Part shown: piece after piece, positions 2,922 to 15,207 of the stretch
Position numbering within the stretch: position 1 is the stretch's first letter
Layout of the letters: each line of letters starts with the position of its first letter
Assembly (NCBI GenBank): GCA_024230695.1
Contig: JAAERC010001099.1
Span: 1 to 17,141, forward strand
Direction of reading: 5' to 3'
Source of the DNA: Candidatus Zixiibacteriota bacterium
Lineage (GTDB): Bacteria; Zixibacteria; MSB-5A5; GN15; PGXB01
Length of the DNA: 17,141 nt
Program-made: the position numbers and the translations under genes
The notes under the pieces: generated by a model
The model's database searches: none
Told to the model about the DNA's origin: nothing
What the model saw: only the letters and a program-made list of their open reading frames with translations

Positions 2922-3468
2922 TGATACTACCAGAATTATCTATTAAACATCTATTTTTTTTATCGGAATAACTATTTTCCTATTATTAGGCCTTACTTCC
3001 AATCTTTTTGGCGAACCGTTTGATAAACAGCTTGAAGGCACTTGGGGAGTTCCATATTTAATATGGCCTTTGTTTGGGCCTTCTGGACATATTTCCGACT
3101 CTTCGGATGCAAAAACTGACACCTCATATTTAGAATTTGACGCCGGACGTTTTAATGTGGAATGGAATAATTCTGAGCACTCCGGTAAATATGAAATATC
3201 TGACGATACAATAATATTTCATGTTGATAAATGCTGCAAAAAAAAGCAAGCCCGAGATACCCTGGTTTGTTCAGATTATGATTTACTTCAGAAAATGATA
3301 TTCATTTATCATTGTGTAGATTATTTAACATTATCGACACCGGCTTATATTGACACTTCCGATTGTTCCGAGGCAATTCAAGATCGCTGTTTTCTCTGGG
3401 GGAACAAATCTCTGTTCGGTAATCGCAAAACCTATCACAGAATACATGACTCAATACCCAATAAATAA
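2921..3468 (+). CDS. Small exported protein, unknown function, frameshifted in a T8 run
   Basis: The ATG at 2921 overlaps the previous stop (TGATG). It reads MILPELSIKHLFF and then hits a stop at 2969. From 2947 the other frame is open to 3468 but has no good start of its own. If the run of eight T at 2954-2961 had nine, the two frames would join into one signal peptide (hydrophobic core FFFIGITIFLLLGL) followed by a mature domain starting near EPFDKQLEGTWG. So the gene is either a recent one-base deletion, a sequencing or assembly error in a homopolymer, or rescued by transcriptional slippage on the T run. A bare TTG start at 3070 would lose the signal peptide. The mature part has several cysteines (CCKKK, and single Cys later) and a GKYEISDDTIIF element like the upstream protein. 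Function unknown. Confidence 0.6.
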
Positions 3469-5871: not shown

Positions 5872-6858
5872 ATGGACTTTCGATACAAACCTGTAATTTT
5901 TCTATTATTCATCATTTACGTTCTTAGTGGATGCGGTACCACACATCATTTCCTACCCTCCAGACCATTAGATAATGAAGATTGGATGATTTCCCTTTCC
6001 TGGCATTATGATTTAAATGGATTGGGCGCTAATATTGTGCCTGACGTAAATGGTTATATTGGGATAGGCAAAAATTATAATTTTGGTTTCGGGGCTCAAT
6101 TTCCGCTATTTATAAGCCATGCATCAATAGTAAAATATATGGATATTGAAAATGATAATAATAATAACTGGGCTATTTATGCACATATGAATGAGATATT
6201 TGGGGCAAATAATAATCCCGCGTTTGAGATTGGTGGGATGCGTAATTGGGGAAAAGCCTCAATCTCACAAAATATTTCTTTTGGAATTGGATTTGGTCAG
6301 CAACAGGCATGGGCTGTTGATAAAAATGCCAAGCGATTATCCTGGGTTGTTCTTCCAACTCTTAAATATAGAATAACTGGCTCTGACGTCGGATTATCGT
6401 TAATACATCACAATGGGCAAACAAAAAGTGCTGTGTTGAGTTCCCTTCCAGATATATTAAAAAGGAATGACACACTTTATATTATTAAATCCGGCAATTT
6501 GGATTCAATTTCAACAGATACAATTATAAGGGCGGGGTTTATTGAAAAAATAACCTTTTTTGAAAAGGGCGGAAAATCAATTGTTTTCAATACTAGTGGC
6601 TGGTGTCCTGATTGCTTTTATATGCATATGGAAGCATTACAAAATTGGCTCGGTGGTGATTATATGGCGGGCTACTTTAATGGGAATTGGAATAGCATTG
6701 CCGTTATCAATTTAAATAAATTCAAGAGTGATTGGGAAAAAGGCAAGGAAATAATTATTACTCGTTATCCAGAACAATTAGTAAATAGGGTTAAAAAGTT
6801 AAACAGCCTTACAAATGATTATTCTTTTGGATTTGGAGTTTTCGGTTATCCGAAATAA
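5872..6858 (+). CDS. Probable lipoprotein of unknown function
   Basis: A 328-residue protein that I cannot place. The N-terminus is a typical lipoprotein signal: MDFRYK, a hydrophobic core (residues 7-18) and the lipobox LSGC with lipidated Cys21. The mature chain is rich in Gly, Asn and aromatic residues with alternating patterns (GYIGIGKNYNFGFGAQF, SFGIGFGQQQAW), as in outer-membrane or periplasmic β-sheet proteins. A CPDC (Cys-x-x-Cys) pair sits near residue 245. No Shine-Dalgarno is visible. It is more AT- and Asn-rich than purL, as are the 2367 and 2921 genes. Its stop codon directly abuts the stop of the convergent membrane-protein gene. Outer-membrane location is inferred, not shown. 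Confidence 0.72.
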   Translation: MDFRYKPVIFLLFIIYVLSGCGTTHHFLPSRPLDNEDWMISLSWHYDLNGLGANIVPDVNGYIGIGKNYNFGFGAQFPLFISHASIVKYMDIENDNNNNWAIYAHMNEIFGANNNPAFEIGGMRNWGKASISQNISFGIGFGQQQAWAVDKNAKRLSWVVLPTLKYRITGSDVGLSLIHHNGQTKSAVLSSLPDILKRNDTLYIIKSGNLDSISTDTIIRAGFIEKITFFEKGGKSIVFNTSGWCPDCFYMHMEALQNWLGGDYMAGYFNGNWNSIAVINLNKFKSDWEKGKEIIITRYPEQLVNRVKKLNSLTNDYSFGFGVFGYPK

Positions 6859-7506
6859 CTAAAAGATCTGTCTGATTGATTCGCCCCAGTCATAGACAAG
6901 AAACTGAACGCGACCTATAAGAAGCGAGATACGACCCATTACGGTGTATCCAAAATGTGCTCCGAATGAAATCATAATAAACCAGATTCCGACTTTGGCC
7001 GTGACACCCAAAAATCCGGTATGTTCTTTCGAGAAATAAAAATATATCAATGTCGAGATAACACCGATGACAATAATCAAGGCCAGAAGTATTGCGGCAA
7101 AGCCATTACTTGGATCAAGTGAGACCATTGTTGATTTTACTTGAGGTATAATCCGGCCATGCAATGATTCAATCAGGAAAATTCCGGCCGTACTGCCCAT
7201 ATAAAAGGCGAGTGAAGCTCGGCTGATCCAGGACCATTTTGGGATCATTCGGGCAAACATCAACGCACCCAAAAATCCCGGGAAAAGCAACCACCATTCG
7301 CCATTATCGAACATCGGATTAACTAATTGTTGGATAATTACTGTCTGCCAGATAAGTCCGACATAATACCCCGCCGAAAGCCCGGCAAAAATATGCTCAG
7401 ACATCTTATAGAACCTGTTATCCTTATACATAAAGGAAAACAATGATAAAATCAGGTAGGCTCTCAGCCAGATCTGAAAATGTTCTATGAAACTAAAACT
7501 ATCCAT
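6859..7506 (-). CDS. Multi-pass membrane protein of unknown function (fourth gene of the membrane operon)
   Basis: A 215-residue integral membrane protein with about six hydrophobic segments (near residues 12-27, 38-59, 72-88, 94-114, 134-159 and 171-190). Distinctive stretches are EHIFAGLSAGYYVGLIWQ after the first segment, a Trp/Gly-rich segment (EWWLLFPGFLGALMFARMIP), and a C-terminal GYTVMGRISLLIGRVQFLV followed by an amphipathic tail. No catalytic motif is evident. Its ATG is 3 bases after the stop of the gene upstream, so it is the last gene of a tight four-gene unit. I recall similar uncharacterised proteins beside DUF6754-type genes in other bacteria, but cannot confirm this here. It could be a channel or scaffold subunit; that is inference. 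Confidence 0.8.
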   Translation of the reverse strand: MDSFSFIEHFQIWLRAYLILSLFSFMYKDNRFYKMSEHIFAGLSAGYYVGLIWQTVIIQQLVNPMFDNGEWWLLFPGFLGALMFARMIPKWSWISRASLAFYMGSTAGIFLIESLHGRIIPQVKSTMVSLDPSNGFAAILLALIIVIGVISTLIYFYFSKEHTGFLGVTAKVGIWFIMISFGAHFGYTVMGRISLLIGRVQFLVYDWGESIRQIF

Positions 7507-7509
7507 TTT

Positions 7510-8343
7510 TTATTCGGTTGCTTTCTTATTTTTTCTTGATAGGAAAAATCCGACATTTCCAAGGATAACCATAAATATTATCAGAAAATGTGCCATCGAT
7601 TGTGCATCCATACCAATAGTTGCCGAACCTGGCGCACCGACCATTTTTTCATATTCAGCGGCACCTTTCATCCCGCCCAATAATCCAGTCATCTGGCCAG
7701 CCTCAATAAAAGCATACATTTTTGGTGCCATCACCGCCGTCACCCCGGAACCAACCCGGATATTATATTGAGCATTAACAATTGATATCCAGTAATCAAC
7801 TGTGGCATTGTCGGCTACACAATAAATAAATGTTATATCATCATAATTTTTTACTTCATTCATCAATGGCAATTCAGAAAGAGGTGTACCGGTAAAATCA
7901 GTCGGGAAAATAGTTCCAATAGAATCGGCCATGCCATGCATCACGGCCAGATAATTAGCCTTATAGCCAAGGTTGACATAATCAATACCATACACTTTGC
8001 CAAACTCTTCGGCAATCTCACGGGTAACTCTTTCGGCGATTGTAGGGCCACCAAGCGGAATGTTGGACAGCGTGACAATTTTCATATCCTTACGCCACAT
8101 ATGTCGAAGCGCCGCAATTGACATAGGTTCAGTCTCAGCCAGAGCTGAAGCATAATAATCAAAAGTAAGCATGATAACAGAGCCGTCTGGAATTTCCTCA
8201 ACGGCATTATATAACTGCTCAGCTTCTGGGGAAAGCTCAATCGGGAATTTTACGACAAAAATAGTCGGGACAAGAATTGATATAAACATCAAAAGATATA
8301 TCCAGCGACGATCTAAGGCATTCATTTTTTCCCAGATATTCAT
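7510..8343 (-). CDS. Membrane-anchored protein with an extracytoplasmic α/β domain, unknown function (third gene of the membrane operon)
   Basis: A 277-residue protein: one N-terminal transmembrane segment (about 14-32) after a basic start, a soluble α/β domain (about 38-240), and one C-terminal transmembrane segment (about 248-268) followed by RKNKK. By the positive-inside rule both ends are cytoplasmic and the domain faces the periplasm. The domain contains DGSVIMLTFDYYASALAE, a strand-helix pattern around KIVTLSNIPLGGP, and near its end TGLLGGMKGAAEYE (LLGGMKG at 221-227). A near-identical LLGGLKG occurs in the first gene of the operon. Start at 8343, 3 bases after the preceding stop; an in-frame ATG six codons later follows a GGGA and is an alternative. 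No recognised enzyme motif. Confidence 0.8.
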   Translation of the reverse strand: MNIWEKMNALDRRWIYLLMFISILVPTIFVVKFPIELSPEAEQLYNAVEEIPDGSVIMLTFDYYASALAETEPMSIAALRHMWRKDMKIVTLSNIPLGGPTIAERVTREIAEEFGKVYGIDYVNLGYKANYLAVMHGMADSIGTIFPTDFTGTPLSELPLMNEVKNYDDITFIYCVADNATVDYWISIVNAQYNIRVGSGVTAVMAPKMYAFIEAGQMTGLLGGMKGAAEYEKMVGAPGSATIGMDAQSMAHFLIIFMVILGNVGFFLSRKNKKATE

Positions 8344-8346
8344 TCT

Positions 8347-9054
8347 TTATTTACCCATATAAGTTCGTTCGATACCAAGAATAATCCGCAGTGACATCGA
8401 GGCCGCACCAAGGGCCGCTCCGATGATAATACCACGCTGAACCGCGACATTAAAGCCGCCCATCACATAACTATTTATATATCCGGGCAGATCGCCGTCG
8501 ATCCATAGCAAAAATGCTTCACCCATCGGAACCCGCCAGAGCATCACAATAATTGCTGTCAAAAGAAGTAATGTTGCTTCAGCGTTACGAGCCCTAAAGG
8601 CGCGATATGCCGCCGAGGCAATATAAAAAGCGAGCATCGCAAACATCGTTTCCATCATTGGGGCATCAATATAATTAAACAGCCAGTCGTAAATCGAATT
8701 TGAGCCGGTGCCCAAAAGAGGTATCCAGCTTTCGGGGAAGATGCTATAAAAAATCGAACCACCGATAGATTCTTTGGTGACTGGCATCATCGCCGGGATA
8801 GCCATAGCAAAAACCGAGACAATTGTCATTAATTTATAGATCCAGTCCTCGCTTTTACGCTGAACGGCCCGGGCGTTTACCCTGACGATTGAAACCACAC
8901 CAAGAACCAAGGCAAATCCACCAACAATAGTCATCCACTGTAAAATAACTTCCTTAGCATCACCAATAAATACTCTTTCAGGATTGATAAAAAAGCTGAT
9001 AATCAGCAGAATGCCAGCGACAAAGGCAACTATAATCGGGACTGTTGTTCGCAT
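8347..9054 (-). CDS. Multi-pass membrane protein of unknown function (second gene of the membrane operon)
   Basis: A 235-residue protein with about six hydrophobic segments: roughly 4-22, 38-57, 72-90, 134-153, 160-177 and 205-227. A longer loop between the third and fourth contains aromatic and Gly residues (SIFPESWIPLLGTGSNSIYDW). Basic clusters (RVNARAVQRKSEDW, RAFRARNAE) mark cytoplasmic loops. I see no transporter signature, nucleotide-binding site or metal motif. The start is an ATG 6 bases after the stop of the upstream gene, with no clear Shine-Dalgarno, so translation is probably coupled. Its place between two anchored proteins suggests a membrane-embedded core for a complex; this is inference from context. 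Confidence 0.8.
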   Translation of the reverse strand: MRTTVPIIVAFVAGILLIISFFINPERVFIGDAKEVILQWMTIVGGFALVLGVVSIVRVNARAVQRKSEDWIYKLMTIVSVFAMAIPAMMPVTKESIGGSIFYSIFPESWIPLLGTGSNSIYDWLFNYIDAPMMETMFAMLAFYIASAAYRAFRARNAEATLLLLTAIIVMLWRVPMGEAFLLWIDGDLPGYINSYVMGGFNVAVQRGIIIGAALGAASMSLRIILGIERTYMGK

Positions 9055-9060
9055 TAGATT

Positions 9061-9939
9061 TTATGGCACATCAAACAGGTTGATATACCATTCTCCCACT
9101 CCAAATGTTGCCAGTAATGTACCAATTAATATAGAAATAATAATAACAACCTTAACAAAATCCTGACCCTTAAGACCGCCGAGTAAAAGAGGTTCATGAC
9201 TCAGATAACTTGAGGCGGCATAAAGCTCCTCGCCCATTAATGTGAAATCACAGGCGGCGATAAAAAACGGTAACTGTTCCGGTCGGGCCGTTCCGGCGAT
9301 CTGAATCGCTCCAGAGGCATTACCGGTTTCGGCCAACAATAATGACTCGGCAAAAAATCCGCCCATATATATATTAGCGGCAGGCCGTTCACGCATCATC
9401 ATACCATTAACCGTTGCCGTAAAAGCAAACTGCTCTCCGGCTACATAACGCACCGTATCCTGATCGTATGAGTCAATTTTACCCATCTCAGCATAGGCAC
9501 CCTCAACAACTTCCTGCGATGCCGCCAAAACCATCGGATACCGAACTGGGACACGAAGTGGCGTATCATACTGAGCGGTAACTCGGGCCACCCGACCCAA
9601 AATAGCTATTCCGGCGATTGTTTCGATATCGTCAACATCGGCAATCCCGGGTATAAAAAGCACCGGCTTACCCATCTCGGTAGCTCGGCCAACCGCATCC
9701 TCAACCGCATCGACACCGGCGATTTTACGGATAAATAACTTTTTGCCACCTTTGGCCCATTTGGTGTATAATAAAACTGCGCCTGAAAAAACGAATAATA
9801 AAACTAGTACAGTTGTTCTTTGCGTAATAAAAATCGAATCGCCAAAATCCTGGGCAAATGCCTGAGAATTTATAATTAGCGACATCGTTATTGTGAGGAG
9901 AATAACGGGTAATTTTCGAATTGCTTTTAATTTATTCAC
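9061..9939 (-). CDS. DUF6754-like membrane protein (first gene of the four-gene membrane operon)
   Basis: A 292-residue protein with a signal-like N-terminus (basic MNKLKAIRKL, hydrophobic core, AFA-Q cleavage-like site near residue 29), a transmembrane segment (about 41-60) followed by KWAKGGKK, a soluble domain (about 66-255), and a C-terminal transmembrane segment (about 263-283). Charge distribution puts the domain in the cytoplasm. The domain opens with IRKIAGVDAVEDAVGRATEM and contains PVLFIPGIADVDD and, at 252-258, LLGGLKG. From memory this resembles Pfam DUF6754, whose function is unknown; a profile search is needed to confirm. The start is GTG at 9939 with no Shine-Dalgarno and with its own promoter. 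Gaps to the three following genes are 6, 3 and 3 bases, indicating one operon. Confidence 0.8.
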   Translation of the reverse strand: MNKLKAIRKLPVILLTITMSLIINSQAFAQDFGDSIFITQRTTVLVLLFVFSGAVLLYTKWAKGGKKLFIRKIAGVDAVEDAVGRATEMGKPVLFIPGIADVDDIETIAGIAILGRVARVTAQYDTPLRVPVRYPMVLAASQEVVEGAYAEMGKIDSYDQDTVRYVAGEQFAFTATVNGMMMRERPAANIYMGGFFAESLLLAETGNASGAIQIAGTARPEQLPFFIAACDFTLMGEELYAASSYLSHEPLLLGGLKGQDFVKVVIIISILIGTLLATFGVGEWYINLFDVP

Positions 9940-9946
9940 GGCACTA

Positions 9947-9974
9947 AAGATAACTATTTATATCCTATTGTCAA
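9947..9974 (-). promoter_or_regulatory. Promoter of the four-gene membrane operon
   Basis: On the minus strand a perfect TTGACA (9974-9969) is followed after 16 bases by TATCTT (9952-9947). The -10 ends 7 bases before the GTG at 9939, so transcription would start at or one base before the start codon, giving a leaderless mRNA. It separates the operon from panC, whose stop lies 109 bases upstream. Confidence 0.55.

Positions 9975-12775: not shown

Positions 12776-15207
<2,432 letters not shown>

Follow-up and report, generated by a model that had tools for sequence, protein, structure and literature searches.

A conserved four-gene DUF6754 membrane cassette in Zixibacteria and its probable link to a MutL-like ATPase

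What might four adjacent membrane protein genes of a Candidatus Zixiibacteriota bacterium do together? The genes lie on the minus strand of contig JAAERC010001099.1 (the window, that is, the whole analysed stretch of 17,141 nucleotides), between positions 9939 and 6859, as four co-directional open reading frames in the order A-B-C-D. The original prediction, made from the letters alone, had described four genes with gaps of 6, 3 and 3 bases. The open reading frames bear out these gaps for A/B, B/C and C/D, and the order recurs in other genomes. We find that the four genes are conserved as a unit and that their products very probably form a four-subunit complex. Judging from gene order, one gene fusion and co-occurrence, the DUF6754 family, to which A belongs, is likely to be functionally linked to a MutL-like ATPase.

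Gene A (9061..9939, minus strand; 292 residues, GTG start) encodes the DUF6754 protein. Gene B (8347..9054, minus strand; 235 residues) and gene D (6859..7506, minus strand; 215 residues) encode multi-pass membrane proteins, and gene C (7510..8343, minus strand; 277 residues) encodes a protein with a predicted periplasmic Rossmann-like domain between two transmembrane helices. Neither Pfam nor NCBIfam gave a family above cut-off for B, C or D, and B and D did not match any known transporter family in these collections over the curated cut-offs. No family and no convincing sequence match points to a known transporter or sensor, an outcome that would have counted against the original prediction. 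We take A to D to be real genes under selection, since the ratio of nonsynonymous to synonymous substitution rates (dN/dS) lies between 0.05 and 0.09 in all four and is strongly purifying (A 0.063, B 0.090, C 0.059, D 0.050). The comparison was made with the nearest relative, locus L001 of a metagenome-assembled Candidatus Zixiibacteriota genome, whose proteins are 84–91% identical to the four of the window.

Co-occurrence of the four genes had been set beforehand as one test of the prediction. With profiles we found that 98 of 109 A copies, the window's included, are followed by B, C and D on the same strand and in the same order; the copies are those with at least 3 kb of downstream room in 104 loci and the window, and the loci were partly selected from matches to A and share ancestry. 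Single-sequence searches of 45 genome loci gave the order A-B-C-D wherever the locus allows it, the exceptions being L040, L041 and L042, where A is solo, and L026, whose cassette is broken. A second cassette, whole or in part, lies in tandem in 34 of these 45 loci. Every one of the 98 Zixibacteria-phylum genomes sampled contains DUF6754 (five matches in 52 of them, range 1 to 6), as do 42 of 42 Fermentibacterota, 3 of 3 Mcinerneyibacteriota and 129 of 151 Armatimonadota genomes; it was found in none of 14 control genomes. The survey covers these four phyla and the controls; its genomes may be incomplete, and the phylum names given to the genome sets are presumed ones. In the protein database one A protein from Armatimonadota has 4112 relatives among the 8000 candidates scored, and of 4492 candidates for C, 3435 are homologues at E ≤ 0.001. 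A tblastn search with A of plasmid and phage records gave no match at E ≤ 1e-5.

Within Zixibacteria we distinguish five paralogous cassette types, and the cassette of the window belongs to the dispersed type 4. In a tree of 155 A sequences the window's A falls next to L001 in a type 4 clade of eight genes (Shimodaira–Hasegawa-like approximate likelihood ratio test, SH-aLRT, 99), and type 5 forms a second clade of four genes with a support of 100. Tandem arrays of two or three cassettes are found in L005–L035 (for example L028, 3880–15193), some of them cut by the locus ends, and in the tree each of the three tandem positions corresponds to a separate paralogue type. Five DUF6754 genes are carried by each of the chromosomes G004, G005 and G006; in G006 three stand in tandem and two lie separately. 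By the best match of A to five exemplars, 69 complete Zixibacteria cassettes were typed (24 of type 1, 26 of type 2, 7 of type 3, 8 of type 4 and 4 of type 5), and trees were calculated for A (67 rows), B (69), C (69) and D (66). Each subunit tree requires 4 label changes, which is the minimum for five labels; shuffled labels require 33–35 on average and none of 200 shuffles came as low as 4. Type 1 alone needs 2 changes in each of the four trees. Type 4 makes up one side of a single, starred branch in all four, and the window's subunits are all of type 4. The trees of A, B, C and D are congruent and give no sign of subunit swapping, so the cassette is inherited as a unit. The absence of swapping is what an obligate complex would predict.

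Gene A is a full-length DUF6754 protein, as the original prediction had suggested: it matches the Pfam family (PF20539) with E = 1.7e-116 and 388.3 bits at a gathering cut-off of 27, and residues 34–280 (start codon excluded) align to positions 4–250 of the 257 of the model. Hydropathy and charge yield a signal-like helix, a transmembrane helix, a domain of 201 residues opening with a Lys/Arg-rich stretch and a further transmembrane helix; by charge the soluble domain should be cytoplasmic. In the structure model (predicted local distance difference test, pLDDT, 88.3; predicted template modelling score, pTM, 0.80) a Rossmann-like domain sits between two membrane helices. This domain, residues 70–248 (9196..9732, minus strand), is predicted to be cytoplasmic. 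In an alignment of 54 A sequences 43 columns are invariant, 38 of them inside the domain, and many of the invariant residues are in loops following predicted strands. Rossmann folds bind ligands in loops after strands.

In the tandem types A bears an FnIII domain in its N-terminal part ahead of the first transmembrane helix, which would fit a periplasmic N-terminal segment. The A profile matches mainly FnIII domains in the PDB, among them that of titin (E = 2.3e-14). The window's A is without this domain, since only 15 residues separate its first two helices. Beyond FnIII, searches of the PDB sequences with A, C and the four subunit profiles gave nothing convincing. One 405-residue DUF6754 protein, P0230, also bears PF13240 and PF13248, presumably zinc ribbons.

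In C, hydropathy and charge give a domain of 216 residues between two transmembrane helices, with Lys/Arg at both termini, and the charge suggests that the soluble domain (residues 34–249; 7597..8244, minus strand) is periplasmic. The structure model of C (pLDDT 94.1, pTM 0.88) again has a Rossmann-like domain between membrane helices. Hydropathy, charge and models thus agree with the predicted pair of anchored α/β proteins, the product of 9061–9939 facing the cytoplasm and that of 7510–8343 the periplasm. B and D had been described as six-helix proteins. Their multi-pass nature stood, whereas a simple hydropathy cut gives five peaks in B and four in D; from the alignments six helices are plausible, and both proteins may yet turn out to have a known membrane fold. 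We considered whether the set arose by an ancient duplication of a pair of one soluble and one membrane protein and rejected this, as profile comparison gave a probability of 0.5% for A against C and of 1.6% for B against D. The arrangement originally proposed, a membrane complex that carries one soluble module on either side, best fits the co-conservation, the congruent trees, the topology and the models of A and C.

Beside other cassettes four further genes recur, coding for s1, s2, a MutL-like ATPase and c0. The s1 product is a membrane protein of about 140–160 residues (one of four tested matched bPH_6, below cut-off, E = 0.0076) and s2 has about 85–150 residues and no Pfam family; s2 could be an adaptor at the membrane. 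A motif resembling PAxFFLExxKPLxF recurs in s2, for example in L079 (6134–6454) and L092 (3858–4181). The c0 protein has about 375 residues with a barrel-sandwich part, and the MutL-like protein about 600. In some cassettes of three phyla these genes form an eight-gene cluster s1-s2-MutL-c0-A-B-C-D, namely in the Zixibacteria genome G003 (L058 and L057, three cassettes), in Fermentibacterota (L059, L098) and in Armatimonadota (L092, L093, L094). The order in L090, also from Armatimonadota, is s1-s2-A-B-C-D-MutL-c0. Both s1 and s2 precede A on the cassette strand in all 20 Armatimonadota regions. In 11 Zixibacteria array loci (L005, L010, L011, L014, L017, L021, L028, L030, L031, L033 and L052) the genes for MutL, c2 and c0 are divergent from the first A; c2, read by eye, is a signal-peptide protein with a C-terminal transmembrane helix. 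In L097 of Fermentibacterota a 916-residue MutL-like/c0 fusion (6725–9472) follows A-B-C-D directly, and its c0 part was recognised by the c0 profile with 58 bits (independent E-value 3.7e-20, for a database of one sequence). Further MutL matches in Fermentibacterota lie in open frames of about 920–980 residues.

The MutL-like protein matches the Pfam families MutL and Hydantoinase_A, which belong to the ASKHA group. DCGSTTTKAIL and DIGGATTDVFS, constant in 7 aligned MutL-like sequences, are presumably the phosphate motifs of ASKHA ATPases. MutL-like matches pass the cut-off in 94 of the 98 Zixibacteria-phylum genomes and in 38 of 42 Fermentibacterota genomes. The 151 Armatimonadota genomes divide into 127 with both MutL-like and DUF6754 matches, 2 with DUF6754 only, 8 with MutL-like only and 14 with neither, where MutL matches with E above 1e-20 were scored as absent (three genomes). 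Fisher's test for the co-occurrence gives p = 1.7e-12, a value too small because the genomes are related and incomplete. When the match lists were read by hand, MutL-like and DUF6754 matches within about 6 kb of each other were seen in at least 38 of 98 Zixibacteria-phylum, at least 18 of 151 Armatimonadota and at least 21 of 42 Fermentibacterota genomes. We also inspected 20 Armatimonadota loci with a MutL-like gene away from A-B-C-D, of which 5 belong to genomes that lack a DUF6754 match. There c0 is present in 7 and the family second in frequency, an ABC ATP-binding protein, in 4; the surroundings of the 20 loci gave no functional lead.

Several observations weigh against an obligate four-subunit unit served by this ATPase and binding a ligand. 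Eleven of the 109 A copies are not followed by a full B-C-D: only B follows in five (L026, L052, L055, L085, L103), A is solo in four from Fermentibacterota (L041, L042, L097, L099), ends an array in L102 and is the first of a doubled A in L091. Three of the five cases with B alone come from the Zixibacteria chromosomes G004 and G005, in which the array is broken inside a B gene with the remainder elsewhere; from the coordinates (L008, L026, L052, L055) we infer a rearrangement or an assembly fault. The type 2 clade is weakly supported in the trees of B and D (90/49 and 79/92). A MutL-like gene stands beside the cassette in just four of the 20 Armatimonadota regions (L090, L092, L093, L094), and the 2 and 8 discordant Armatimonadota genomes count in the same direction. 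None of 12 type 4 and type 5 loci, the window among them, has a MutL-like gene beside the cassette, and the profile search found neither a MutL-like gene nor c0 in the window. Since no ATPase gene adjoins, the link is weaker for the type 4 cassette. The residues following strand 1 are PGIADVDDIET in A and DYYASALAET in C; neither protein has the Gly-rich loop which classical dinucleotide-binding folds and NAD(P)-binding Rossmann enzymes carry at this place. The conserved residues may be subunit contacts instead of a ligand pocket.

How do these proteins compare with known systems? Pfam DUF6754 covers A over its full length and gives no function; B, C, D and the ATPase partners are outside the family. 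For neither structure model, that of A or that of C, did Foldseek return a match at E ≤ 0.001. Among the closest comparisons are Sir2, transhydrogenase dIII and the carbon monoxide dehydrogenase (CODH) epsilon subunit, which are DHS-like Rossmann folds, with 6–12% identity and weak best E-values of 5.9e-3 and 2.0e-3. The domains of the window differ in being tethered by transmembrane helices, and the similarity would be one of arrangement and not of family. RCK domains of K+ channels (GsuK, MthK) are a further comparison; here the differences are that B and D are without a channel family match and that the domain of C is probably periplasmic. In the L097 fusion the c0 part scores slightly above the RnfC_N cut-off (E = 8.2e-6; 26.2 against 25.6 bits) and stays below that of NQRA_N (22.9 against 25 bits); c0 of L090 matches RnfC_N more weakly (E = 0.031). 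We noticed no Rnf or Nqr subunit in the loci that were read, although no profile search was aimed at them. The partner ATPase, which is not encoded in the window, shares the MutL domain with GlmL/MutL (PF13941; E = 4.2e-126 for L092).

This last similarity invites the proposal that the MutL-like protein reactivates glutamate mutase and that A-B-C-D serve cobalamin metabolism as an accessory of a B12-dependent mutase. The name of PF13941 speaks for it, as do the closest NCBIfam models, GlmL and a GlmL-related ornithine protein. The one protein scored, that of L092, however, remains below both GlmL cut-offs (226.3 against 475 for NF040745 and 175.1 against 204.05 for TIGR01319). Unlike GlmL, the partner ATPase of about 600 residues occurs in genomes without glutamate mutase: the glutamate mutase epsilon chain (PF06368), on which this check was based, passes its cut-off in 5 of the 98 genomes from the Zixibacteria phylum, as compared with the 94 that have the MutL-like gene. 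With GlmL scores below cut-off and glutamate mutase rare, this role is unsupported and we consider it very improbable; the partner does not look like a glutamate mutase chaperone. That the four genes are chance neighbours without functional relation is more improbable by far. Only the lack of annotation would favour it, and the order kept in the 98 copies over four phyla, together with the congruent trees, has already refuted it as regards co-inheritance.

Two other proposals deserve more weight, each being possible though unlikely. The ATPase might dock via s2 and c0 on the cytoplasmic face of A-B-C-D and organise the envelope, as an assembly or cytoskeleton-like platform. FtsA and PilM dock on their membrane partners in such a manner. 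The matches of the ATPase to MutL and Hydantoinase_A, the membrane protein s1 with its one weak bPH_6 match in four, the FnIII domains of the tandem-type A and the presence of DUF6754 in all sampled genomes of two larger phyla are consistent with a platform. Yet the MutL-like profile matches no PDB sequence at E ≤ 1 and thus there is no sequence link to FtsA, PilM or GspL; moreover, A and C have conserved pockets, which point to ligand binding. According to the other proposal, the type 4 cassette has come to serve a function of its own, for example as a stand-alone sensor or channel which works without the ATPase. Its own clade of 8 rows with SH-aLRT 99, the FnIII-less A and the missing MutL-like neighbour would agree with this, whereas the four genes and the invariant columns are as in the ATPase-linked types and the genome of the nearest relative (G001) contains one MutL-like gene. 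A role in anti-phage defence was also tried and rejected, PADLOC giving a single chance-level match (C, E = 0.086).

We give about an even chance to an ATPase-linked inner-membrane complex whose two soluble domains sense or move a small ligand. B and D would form the multi-pass core of the complex, A would place one Rossmann-like domain in the cytoplasm and C another in the periplasm. The family would work together with the ASKHA-type MutL-like ATPase, the barrel-sandwich protein c0 and the small proteins s1 and s2, probably in physical contact. The ATPase, acting through c0, could assemble or energise A-B-C-D, which might bind a small ligand in pockets that are conserved in both A and C; the ligand, or a signal of its presence, could then be passed across the membrane. 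The type 4 cassette of the window would be served, if at all, by a MutL-like ATPase encoded elsewhere. Any specific biochemical step is doubtful, its likelihood being well under half.

The original prediction had also given the operon its own promoter. A site TTGACA-16-TATCTT (9947..9974, minus strand), with 10 of 12 consensus matches, stops 7 bases ahead of the GTG of A. The consensus scan finds 15 promoter-like sites where shuffles give 9.8 ± 3.2, and the upstream gene (10903–10049, panC by eye) is co-directional at a distance of 109 bases. For these reasons the independent promoter is a candidate only. On the other side of the cassette, a 328-residue gene (5872–6858), lipoprotein-like by eye and without a Pfam family, is convergent with D, the stops directly adjoining; the same convergent pair is present in L001. 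The 132-residue open reading frame at 3070–3468 has an L001 counterpart called as 190 residues, and its start or frame may differ.

Some neighbours were noted in other genomes. Type 5 cassettes lie, by eye, near a sugar ABC transporter, an ABC-2 exporter and a D-alanyl-D-alanine carboxypeptidase, which gives no clear lead. The solo DUF6754 genes of Fermentibacterota are located at 12987–14165 in L040, 7581–8783 in L041, 2208–3386 in L042, 12635–13945 in L097 and 12669–13847 in L099. Those of L040–L042 adjoin glycosyltransferase and acetyltransferase genes, and that of L097 is followed by an acetyltransferase gene (by eye). In L091 from Armatimonadota two consecutive A genes (6446–8268) stand ahead of B-C-D.

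In the open-access literature, outside of which most subscription journals fall, we found no paper on the four-gene unit, the paralogue system or the eight-gene cluster. The only existing label for the protein family is that of a domain of unknown function. DUF6754 likely does something that the cells need, since the gene is present in all sampled genomes of two larger phyla and in 129 of 151 of a third, is kept in a four-gene unit and has 43 invariant residues in its product A. It is conceivable, at somewhat less than even odds, that we see here an undescribed class of ATP-driven inner-membrane machine, in which an ASKHA ATPase is coupled by a barrel-sandwich adaptor to a four-subunit complex that bears one ligand-binding Rossmann-like domain at either face of the membrane, and which whole phyla of mostly uncultured bacteria maintain in several paralogous copies, three of them in tandem. 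If the link to the ATPase is true, it would be a new coupling of an actin/Hsp70-fold ATPase to a membrane complex, and the eight-gene cluster makes the partners, the topology and the phenotype testable questions.

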